Origin: Pseudohongiella sp. O18
GTDB lineage: Bacteria; Pseudomonadota; Gammaproteobacteria; Pseudomonadales; Pseudohongiellaceae
Direction of reading: 5' to 3'
DNA: 64,000 nucleotides
NCBI RefSeq assembly: GCF_021729085.1
Contig: NZ_JAJSAR010000001.1
Coordinates: 1,612,001-1,676,000, forward strand
The position numbers and the translations under genes were made by a program. Position 1 is the stretch's first letter, and each line of letters begins with the position of its first letter. This document shows positions 38,071 through 41,754 of this stretch, piece by piece. A model generated the notes under the pieces. It searched no databases and was not told where the DNA came from. It saw only the letters and a list, made by a program, of their open reading frames with translations.

Positions 38071-39735
38071 ATGAACTACTTCGATATTACATATACCGCG
38101 CTGGGTGGACTGGCAATCTTCTTCCTCGGGTTGAAGTACCTGTCGGAGTCACTGCAATCGAGCGGGCAGGAAGCCATCAAGCGCATCCTGGCGTCGCTAA
38201 CCCGTAATCGGGTGATGGCGGTGCTTGCCGGCCTGGGTATCACTGTCTTCGTTCAGTCCAGCTCGATCTCGACGGTGATGACTGTCAGTCTGGTTAACGC
38301 CGGCTTGATGGAGCTTAAGCAGGCCATTGGTGTCATCCTCGGCGCCAACATTGGTACGACCGTCACGGGCTGGATCATCTCAATCAAAGTAGGCAAGTAC
38401 GGCCTGTTTCTGATAGCGCTGGGCATGTATCCCATGTTTGCGGCACAGCGGCAGTGGCTGGCGACGCTGGGCAAGACGTCTGTTGCACTCGGCCTGGTGT
38501 TTACTGGCCTGGAGTTCATGAGTGGCGCATTCGTGCCGCTGCGCACAGACGAAGCTTTCATCTCCTATCTCTACCTGTTCGATGCGGATTCACTGTTCAG
38601 TCTGCTGGCCTGCGTGGTCCTGGCGTGCCTGCTGACAGTTATCGTACAGAGCAGCTCAGCCATGCTGGGTATTACCATTACTCTGGCCACGACGGGAGTT
38701 ATCGATTTCAATACGGCGGTCGCTCTGATTATTGGCGAAAATATTGGTACCACCATTACGGCCCAACTGGCCGCCATTGGTGCCAACACGTCAGCGATCC
38801 GGGCGGCGCGCGCCCACGCCATCTTTAATATCCTGGGCGCGATAGTACTGGTGGCCGTGTTCCCCTGGTACGTGCAGTTTGTTGATCTGATTGTTGGTGG
38901 CGCGGCTGATGAGCTGGATGCAGAAGGCATGCGTCCCTACATCGGTTTCCACATTGCTGTAGCTCATACCATGTTCAATGTGATCAACGTGCTGATCTGG
39001 GTACCTTTCATCGGTTTCCTGACCAAAACTGTTATCTGGCTGGTACCGCAGAAAACCGAGAAGGAAAAGCACAAACTCAAGTATCTGGGCAACCGCACTA
39101 CCATGGCGCCCGAGGTTGCATTGCAGCAGGCCGACCTGGAAATGGACAACATGGTCGAGATTACGCGCGAGATGTTCACCACAACGCGTGAGTACGTGCT
39201 CGGCAATGGTCACGACAAGAAGATGTTTGAACGCATCAATCATCTGGAAGACATCACCGACAACATCGAAGAAGAGATGATCAAGTTCATCACTATTGTG
39301 ATGACCGGTAATCTCAGCCAGGAGCAGTCGGCACGCTCCTATGGTCTGATGCGGATGGCGGATGAAATCGAAAGTATTGCTGATGCTCTGCAGGCCTTCA
39401 GTATCTATCGGAGCCGATTGTTCAAGCGCAATGAAGATATCGGCGAAGAGGCCTGGCAGGACATCATGGTTTTCTTCAACGATGTTGAGGCTTACTTCAA
39501 GGCAATTCTCAAGGCCCGCCACGAGGACGCTGATGTTGACTCAGTCCGAGCGCTGATCAAGGACTCACGTCCGATCAAGAAACTGGGCAAGCAGATGCGT
39601 GACCGACACCTGGATCGACTGCGCGCAGGTCAGTATCCGGCTGTTACGGCGCAGACGTTCAGTGACATGTTCATGTCTCTGCAGCACATCAAGAATCACT
39701 CGGTAAATTACATCGAAGCCTACGCCGGCCTCTGA
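38071..39735 (+). CDS. Na/Pi cotransporter with C-terminal PhoU-like domain
   Basis: 554 residues. Two Na/Pi-cotransport repeats each carry the QSSS signature (VFVQSSSISTVMTV near residue 70, VIVQSSSAMLGITI near 192) plus the GANIGTTVT and GENIGTTIT motifs. The C-terminal 200 residues form a PhoU-like helical bundle (LEMDNMVEITREMF, LEDITDNIEEEMIKF). The architecture is that of bacterial NptA/YjbB proteins, which move inorganic phosphate with sodium; the PhoU part may tune export or import. A Pho-box-like element precedes it. Start ATG 38071 follows without a clear Shine-Dalgarno. Confidence 0.92.
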   Translation: MNYFDITYTALGGLAIFFLGLKYLSESLQSSGQEAIKRILASLTRNRVMAVLAGLGITVFVQSSSISTVMTVSLVNAGLMELKQAIGVILGANIGTTVTGWIISIKVGKYGLFLIALGMYPMFAAQRQWLATLGKTSVALGLVFTGLEFMSGAFVPLRTDEAFISYLYLFDADSLFSLLACVVLACLLTVIVQSSSAMLGITITLATTGVIDFNTAVALIIGENIGTTITAQLAAIGANTSAIRAARAHAIFNILGAIVLVAVFPWYVQFVDLIVGGAADELDAEGMRPYIGFHIAVAHTMFNVINVLIWVPFIGFLTKTVIWLVPQKTEKEKHKLKYLGNRTTMAPEVALQQADLEMDNMVEITREMFTTTREYVLGNGHDKKMFERINHLEDITDNIEEEMIKFITIVMTGNLSQEQSARSYGLMRMADEIESIADALQAFSIYRSRLFKRNEDIGEEAWQDIMVFFNDVEAYFKAILKARHEDADVDSVRALIKDSRPIKKLGKQMRDRHLDRLRAGQYPAVTAQTFSDMFMSLQHIKNHSVNYIEAYAGL

Positions 39736-39769
39736 CACGTCGACTCCGGAGCATCTGGTGCCTTATCGC

Positions 39770-39880
39770 TTCCGGCGCCGGAACCAGGGTGGCAGTCCTC
39801 GTCAGGTTTTCCTCGCTCCTTGCCACCCTGTCCCCGCCGCCTCGATTGAACCAAGGTGCCGCATCTTGCGGCAACTTTGG
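39770..39880. repeat. Cluster of three hairpins downstream of the Na/Pi gene
   Basis: TTCCGGCGCCGGAA (39770-39783) is a perfect palindrome. CAGGGTGGCA (39785-39794) pairs with TGCCACCCTG (39821-39830). TGCCGCA (39857-39863) pairs with TGCGGCA (39867-39873), extended by CCAA/TTGG at 39851-39854 and 39877-39880. They may terminate the Na/Pi transcript or form the 3' extension of structured copy B. The GGGTGGCA arm repeats a sequence in stem 1 of copy A. Confidence 0.6.
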
Positions 39881-39899
39881 CCTCAGTTTGTTTAAAGGC

Positions 39900-40097
39900 A
39901 GCGGTCCGGAAGAAGGGTGTCACATCTCGCCCGGATCGCATCCTTTCACCTGGCGCCCGGCGGTGCGGGCCTCGACCTCGCACGCTACGCGGGCTCGGGA
40001 CTCGAACAGTCCTACCCGCTGATCGGTCGCCAGGCAAAAGGATAAAGCGCGCCCTGATTGGGCGAGCTGCTGACACCCTCCTTCCTCCCCTTGTGCC
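39900..40097 (-). ncRNA. Unidentified structured RNA candidate, copy B
   Basis: Read on the minus strand, 198 nt. Stem 1 (plus coordinates): GGAAG 39908-39912 with CTTCC 40081-40085; U.G pair 39913/40080; 9 bp 39914-39922 with 40071-40079; CTCGCCC 39926-39932 with GGGCGAG 40060-40066. Stem 2: 39940-39946 with 40037-40043, tandem U.G/G.U (39947-39948 with 40035-40036), 39949-39955 with 40028-40034. Stem 3: GGACT/AGTCC 39998-40002 with 40008-40012. It shares unpaired blocks with copy A: GGCACAAGGG at the 5' end, CCCAATCAGG, ATCAGCGGG, GGATGCGATCCGGGC, and GGACCGCT at the 3' end. No known class recognised; promoter not identified. Confidence 0.5.
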
Positions 40098-40282
40098 ATC
40101 GTCAATCGCAACAAAGCTGCAACAGGCGCCGACTCTGTCTGGACACGGCGCAGAAGCCCGAACGAAGAGGTCTGTGGCCGAATTGCCATCCCAACTACAG
40201 AGTACATTGTGTATCCCTTTTGGCTCGCGCTTACCAATCGTGAATTCTGATTGAGCCTTTGATGATAGACAGTGTCGAAACT

Positions 40283-40526
40283 GGCACAAGGGCAGGGTAG
40301 TGGGTGGCAGAATCATGCCCAATCAGGCAGGTTTTTGCTCCTGCAAAACCTGCATTCCCGCCATCCATGGCGGTTGGCGCGTCTATCATTGTGCCGGACA
40401 CCCGATCAGCGGGCGGGACTGTCTGAGTCCTGAGCGACGCAGTCGCGAAGTCGAGTTCCCCCCCGCCGGGTGTCCGGTGCAAGGATGCGATCCGGGCATG
40501 ATCTGCCACCCGCTACCCGGACCGCT
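40283..40526 (+). ncRNA. Unidentified structured RNA candidate, copy A
   Basis: Plus strand, 244 nt. Stem 1: GGGTAG 40295-40300 with 40513-40518; U.G 40301/40512; GGGTGGCAGA 40302-40311 with 40502-40511; bulged A 40312; TCATGCCC 40313-40320 with 40494-40501. Stem 2: 40385-40391 with 40480-40486 (one A.G mismatch), tandem U.G/G.U, CCGGACACCCG 40394-40404 with 40467-40477. Stem 3: GGACT/AGTCC 40416-40420 with 40426-40430. Compared with copy B it carries about 46 extra bases forming two hairpins (40327-40353 and 40358-40373) between CCCAATCAGG and stem 2. It lies just past the 3' end of the MFS gene, antisense to it. A weak outer pairing GCACAA/TTGTGC (40284-40289 with 40533-40538) is possible. 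Confidence 0.5.
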
Positions 40527-40560
40527 CTCAAATTGTGCGCAAATTACGGACTGCAAGCGA

Positions 40561-41754
40561 TCAGCGAGAGGTGTGCCGTTGAGCGATGTAGAAGCTGACC
40601 AGCGACAGGGTTGCCGCGGTGAGCATCAGCAGCAGCATCGGATAGACCGTGCCGTTGAACATCAGCGCAACCAGCTGCGCCGCCACCGCGGAGAAACCCA
40701 TCTGCAGAAAACCCGTCAGCCCCGACGCACTGCCAGCCATATCCGGGAACTCATTGATCGCCGCCGCCTGCGCATTGGGTAGCGATATCCCATTCCCGAA
40801 CGTGGTCAGCGCAATCGGCATGAACAGTGCGAGCGGGTGCAGCAGACCGCTTAGATGCAGGATCAGTGCGACTGAAATGCCTGTGATACTGAGCCACGAT
40901 CCGCTAGTGATCATGCGTTTGACACCAAATCTGGTTGAGAGCCAGCGGGCCACGTAGTTTCCGGCCATAAAGGCAGAAGGGATCAGCACGAAGTAGTAGC
41001 CGTATTCGTTGGGTGGCCGGTTCAGCACCGATACCATGACTTCTGGTGCGGCGGCGATGAAACTGAAGAACATCACAGAGACGAAGGCGACATTCATGGC
41101 GTAGGCGCTGAAGATGCGCGAGCGCAGCAAAGTCACGAAACCCTTCAGCATGCTGCCGACACCCGTAAATGGTGTCTGTTTTTTGAGTGTTTCCGGCAAG
41201 GCCCGCTGCATGGCAAACAGCATCGTTAGGCTGATGGCAGCAACCAGGTAAAAAATGCTGTGCCAGTCAAACCGGATCATCAGTTCACCACCCACCAGGG
41301 GGGACAGCATCGGCATGACCACCATCACCATGACGAGGGTCGCAATGACACTTGCCGCGCGATCGGCGGGGTAGGTGTCGCGCACAATGGCGCGAGCCAG
41401 AACCAGCCCCACGGCGCCGCCGGCTGCCTGCACAATGCGCCCAAAAATCAGCCAGCCAATGCTGTCAGCAGCCATACAGAGAATGGAGCCGATGACGGTG
41501 ATTGATATGCCAGCCAGCATCACTGGCCGGCGCCCGTAGCGATCCGACAATGGTCCATAGATCAGTGTTGCTATGGCGATGGATAGCATCGACAGGCTAA
41601 GGGTGAGCTGCGCGGTGCCCGTTGATACTTCAAATGTCTCGCGCACGATCGGAATGGCAGGCAGCATGATCTGCATGGCAACAGGGCCAAGGGCTGATGC
41701 TGCCGCCAAAAGCACGATCATGCCGCGTGAGAATTCTCGCGGGGAGTCAGACAT
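40561..41754 (-). CDS. MFS transporter, Bcr/CflA drug-resistance type
   Basis: 397 residues, 12 transmembrane helices. Drug:H+ antiporter motifs are visible: motif A (YGPLSDRYGRRPVMLAG) between helices 2 and 3, motif B-like region (GRIVQAAGGAVGLVLARAIVRD) and the C-like segment PMLSPLVGG. This places it in the Bcr/CflA group (bicyclomycin, sulfonamide or other efflux). It begins 20 bases after the TPR gene and may be the last gene of that operon; the ribosome-binding site is weak. Structured element A starts within 35 bases of its stop. Confidence 0.9.
   Translation of the reverse strand: MSDSPREFSRGMIVLLAAASALGPVAMQIMLPAIPIVRETFEVSTGTAQLTLSLSMLSIAIATLIYGPLSDRYGRRPVMLAGISITVIGSILCMAADSIGWLIFGRIVQAAGGAVGLVLARAIVRDTYPADRAASVIATLVMVMVVMPMLSPLVGGELMIRFDWHSIFYLVAAISLTMLFAMQRALPETLKKQTPFTGVGSMLKGFVTLLRSRIFSAYAMNVAFVSVMFFSFIAAAPEVMVSVLNRPPNEYGYYFVLIPSAFMAGNYVARWLSTRFGVKRMITSGSWLSITGISVALILHLSGLLHPLALFMPIALTTFGNGISLPNAQAAAINEFPDMAGSASGLTGFLQMGFSAVAAQLVALMFNGTVYPMLLLMLTAATLSLVSFYIAQRHTSR

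Follow-up and report, generated by a model that had tools for sequence, protein, structure and literature searches.

Large paired palindromes of Pseudohongiella resemble oversized versions of palindromic repeats known from bacteria more than a new RNA gene

REP, BIME and REPIN repeats (PMC3733652, PMC2817692, PMC3116915) share much with the element described here: they are extragenic palindromes, arranged as inverted dimers that are frequently heterodimers, found between convergent genes or at gene 3' ends, with several families per genome and a lineage-specific spread. REP sequences are only 20-40 bp long, however, and number more than 100 copies, whereas our element measures ~195 nt, has long multi-segment stems with conserved internal loops, occurs in tens of copies and has no RAYT gene next to it. 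MITE-type repeats (ERIC, NEMIS/Correia, YPAL, RUP) offer a second comparison, being, like the element, non-coding, intergenic, strongly structured, 70-300 bp long and devoid of a transposase of their own; in contrast to them, the element gave no sign of a terminal inverted repeat combined with a target duplication, is palindromic over the whole unit and pairs strictly tail-to-tail. Finally, integron attC sites are imperfect palindromes adjoining exchanged genes whose structure is kept while the stem sequence varies. The element resembles them in all of these respects but is larger and forms opposed pairs rather than an array, and its host genome lacks an integrase.

The window analysed here is a 64,000-nt stretch of the Pseudohongiella sp. 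O18 genome (G000 below; G008 is its closest relative among the genomes compared) and holds two copies of the element, A and B (Table 1). The first-pass annotation had presented them as inverted copies of an unrecognised structured RNA, and regarding coordinates, relative orientation and the presence of structure it was correct. A repeat search recovered three pairs of inverted arms (39900-39981/40445-40526, 78%; 39993-40044/40384-40435, 79%; 40053-40098/40282-40327, 78%), A can be aligned to reverse-complemented B, and each copy out-folds its dinucleotide shuffles on either strand (A, z of -5.8 and -7.5; B, z of -7.3 and -10.4). The compensating helix pairs singled out at the time are also present in the sequence, although those attributed to copy A actually come from the copy at 40281-40526. 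That no known RNA class was recognisable holds as well: Rfam 15 yielded no family at its gathering score in the window, and a related element pair searched at a relaxed threshold returned chance-level matches only.

Table 1. Repeats and flanking genes at the A/B site, in window positions.
Feature	Position	Strand	Remark
Na+/Pi cotransporter gene with PhoU domain (PF02690)	38071..39735	+	flanking gene
R2, separate ~83-nt dispersed hairpin repeat	39767..39849	-	upstream of copy A
Copy A, large palindromic element	39900..40099	+	after the Na/Pi cotransporter gene
Spacer dividing tail-to-tail A and B	40100..40280	.	cannot be aligned to the G008 spacer of this site
Copy B, large palindromic element	40281..40526	-	after the MFS transporter gene
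R3, 50-nt double-hairpin insertion within copy B	40327..40376	.	not in the 97%-identical G008 copy
MFS transporter gene (PF07690)	40561..41754	-	flanking gene

The element is a dispersed intergenic repeat, present throughout the genus and very rare elsewhere. The same genome holds, on three contigs, about 20 more copies, some full and some partial, which the first reading had not seen. A covariance model built from 34 copies finds matches in all 15 genus genomes (7-35 in each), compared with 1-2 in each of three further genera belonging to the same family and one match in a different family. The distribution obtained with BLASTN agrees with this picture; BLASTN gave no match to plasmids or phages, and a scan of viral contigs for one exact 29-base pattern gave none either.

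The earlier observation that stems change in a compensating manner while loops stay fixed is borne out well past chance in an alignment of 97 copies. Stem pairing is kept in 92.6% of 5025 cells, compared with 69.9 +/- 0.4% in shuffles, and the covariation score (0.566, against 0.146 in shuffles) was matched by none of 500 shuffles; shifting the partner by 1-3 columns lowers it to 0.08-0.10. Copies contain 52-68 stem pairs, and at 56 of the 68 pairs common to the folds of both strands at least two Watson-Crick types occur. When nearest-neighbour copies are compared, double Watson-Crick changes outnumber single ones (77 versus 60), with singles prevailing in the closest copies, a pattern that fits selection on pairing and arm-to-arm copying equally well.

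Should such covariation be taken as the mark of a functional RNA gene, as the first-pass annotation proposed? Note that a G-U pair on one strand is an A-C mismatch on the other, and that a functional RNA acting from a single strand would be expected to tolerate G-U above A-C. The main stems of the element do not behave in this manner. Applying one rule to the element and to a small control of 6S RNA from relatives (pairs at least 85% canonical), we find G-U in 55 (1.1%) and A-C in 73 (1.4%) of 5186 element cells at 54 pairs, as opposed to 76 (15.5%) and 12 (2.4%) of 490 cells at 17 pairs in 6S RNA. (An initial tally showed an A-C excess, mostly due to a few badly paired columns.) Since both counts are equal and very low, pairing is not tuned to a single RNA strand, and a one-strand RNA accounts less well for the near-absence of wobble than does a DNA-level palindrome or a need for pairing in both transcripts, keeping in mind that symmetric G-U and A-C counts are also expected if transcripts of both strands are under selection. 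The exception is the apical 5-bp helix, where G-U on the + strand hints at some RNA constraint. Taken together, the dispersed repeat organisation, wobble that at ~1% does not exceed A-C mismatches, and the pair orientation and convergent preference described next argue against reading fixed loops and changing stems as the signature of an RNA gene.

Where two copies lie within 1 kb of each other, they are tail-to-tail in 31 of 31 cases, the gaps measuring 13-999 nt, and partners are mostly not each other's nearest relatives. Junctions between genes that hold elements are convergent far more often (39/68) than other junctions (21/206; odds ratio 11.8, p 2e-14), where genes are simple ORF picks and the loci were picked for holding elements. 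At convergent junctions each member of a pair lies in sense behind a stop codon, in many cases at a distance of 14-80 nt. Both the tail-to-tail rule and the convergent preference match traits reported for REP dimers, for which heterodimers and a location between convergent genes have been described (PMC3733652), and the element, like REPs, forms inverted intergenic dimers near gene 3' ends. It carries no family-wide REP tag, be it CGTC or GTAG, the latter checked by eye only; of 96 copies, 15 have a CGTC just past the 3' end of the element, at offset 25/26, and most of these belong to G000 and G008.

The sites themselves are old, and it is the resident copies that are exchanged. All eight G008 blocks that were fetched lie at sites also occupied in G000. 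At two of these, each copy has its ortholog on the same side (0.95 and 0.96 identity). At the window site, by contrast, same-side identities between G000 and G008 are only 0.78 and 0.79. Compared crosswise, the match is closer: B shares 0.97 identity with the G008 copy that follows the Na/Pi gene, and A shares 0.91 with the G008 copy that follows the MFS gene. One simple explanation would be a clean inversion of A and B in place, but the 5' arm of a B-like copy survives as a remnant beside the MFS gene, and this duplicated B-type arm, along with the unrelated spacer, rules such an event out. At other sites the evidence for side-swapping is ambiguous. The only site missing a G000 copy (L035 versus L062) retains a 3' remnant and is therefore a deletion scar; no empty site that was clean and showed a target duplication turned up for the large element. 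That sites are common to several species suggests selection rather than simple mobility. At one further locus (L028:7300-7380), a full copy is preceded by two stacked 5' arms, both of them truncated and both ending in GCCCGGATCG; these stacked arms are a fossil record of repeated replacement.

How, then, is the family best explained? We favour, with a probability of roughly 60%, a family of imperfect DNA palindromes that is specific to the genus and whose members are giant (~195 nt), REP/BIME-like, non-autonomous and recombination-prone, so that the element would be an oversized cousin of known palindromic repeats. Read as DNA, its structure would take shape either as a cruciform or, where replication forks expose single strands, as a hairpin; copies may spread and be exchanged via ectopic recombination, template switching or a putative hairpin-processing enzyme; and their lasting stay at gene ends would reflect tolerance there, possibly in addition to a boundary role between opposing transcripts. 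An RNA role within the read-through transcripts of both genes is possible. Imagine that the element is a 3'-UTR or bidirectional-terminator RNA, each copy folding in the transcript of its upstream gene, opposite read-through folding the other strand, and both being selected: copies would be expected where they are commonly found, in sense and at short distance behind stop codons, with convergent junctions enriched, both strands folding strongly and G-U and A-C equalised. However, no intrinsic terminator beyond chance is present across 39700-40600, 29 of the 68 element junctions fell outside the convergent class, and wobble is ~15-fold below that in 6S RNA, and we consider this scenario unlikely. 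An independently transcribed non-coding RNA gene family, the view of the first-pass annotation, strikes us as very improbable: the repeat organisation, the strictly tail-to-tail neighbours, the lack of a promoter-like site across 39700-40600 and the missing wobble excess all weigh against it, even though covariation is very strong and the loops are conserved.

Genes enclosed by pairs raise another scenario, in which the elements are recombination sites of a cassette system, similar to attC, and genes are swapped between paired palindromes. Several cases speak in its favour. A pair in G009 encloses an SfLAP protein along with MazE and a PemK/MazF toxin, and a second SfLAP protein, 62% identical to the first, sits inside a pair in G014, at a different site; a 3.4-kb insert in G011 splits a pair whose counterparts in G003 are 25-30 nt apart; and in G009 a beta-lactamase-fold serine hydrolase gene lies between two pairs (L095:2705-5219) where relatives have one pair, the gene having been gained along with the extra pair. 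Yet the sites are opposed rather than pointing in the same direction, most spacers are geneless, an integron integrase (TIGR02249) scores above the curated cut-off in just four of the 15 genus genomes (G013, G003, G009, G002) and in G000 not at all, and motY, located between far-apart copies, is probably native. On balance we find a cassette system of this type doubtful. We rate similarly low the bolder proposal of an undescribed system for exchanging genes, whose ends would be the paired palindromes, recognised by their structure; in it, a cellular enzyme would act on folded single-stranded element DNA, invert or replace the contents of pairs and fill intergenic slots with genes, toxin-antitoxin modules for example.

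Other observations on gene content can be set beside these. Two species carry these homologous SfLAP genes within pairs (L079:3121-5685 and L082:2449-3660), the two sites being unrelated and one of the genes lying beside MazEF. DUF3626 is enclosed by a pair in both G014 and G005, apparently at the same site, and a pair in G001 encloses a flavodoxin-like protein. Genes related to the beta-lactamase-fold hydrolase adjoin elements at several other sites. The motY gene was dropped as a candidate cargo; it sits next to argG and pyrC, which we take to be its native position.

No transposase that would mobilise the large element was identified. The single Y1_Tnp gene in G000 has no element copies beside it and Y1_Tnp also occurs in genera without the element, and we rejected a Y1/RAYT gene as the driver. 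The integron integrase was likewise rejected as driver because none is present in G000, where the element is abundant; partial or interrupted TIGR02249 matches occur in several other genus genomes.

If the element is a DNA palindrome, as we favour, the family provides a clear worked case of strong covariation produced by a dispersed palindromic DNA repeat, although such covariation usually counts as proof that an RNA is functional, and the comparison of wobble with A-C mismatches offers a simple means of separating the two. It would also extend palindromic repeats to multi-loop elements of ~200 nt, whose stems change fast while fold, orientation and sites persist, and might serve as a test bed for how bacteria keep and exchange large palindromes.

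Two smaller hairpin repeats accompany the element at this locus. R2, overlooked in the first reading, has 11 matches genome-wide, most of them near large palindromes. R3 has matches in 11 of the 15 genus genomes, some of them free-standing, and its hairpin also occurs alone elsewhere in G000, at a place where G008 is without it. Present in B and alone in G000 while the G008 counterparts lack it, the small repeat has moved, and R3 can be described as a small REP-like repeat that did so recently.
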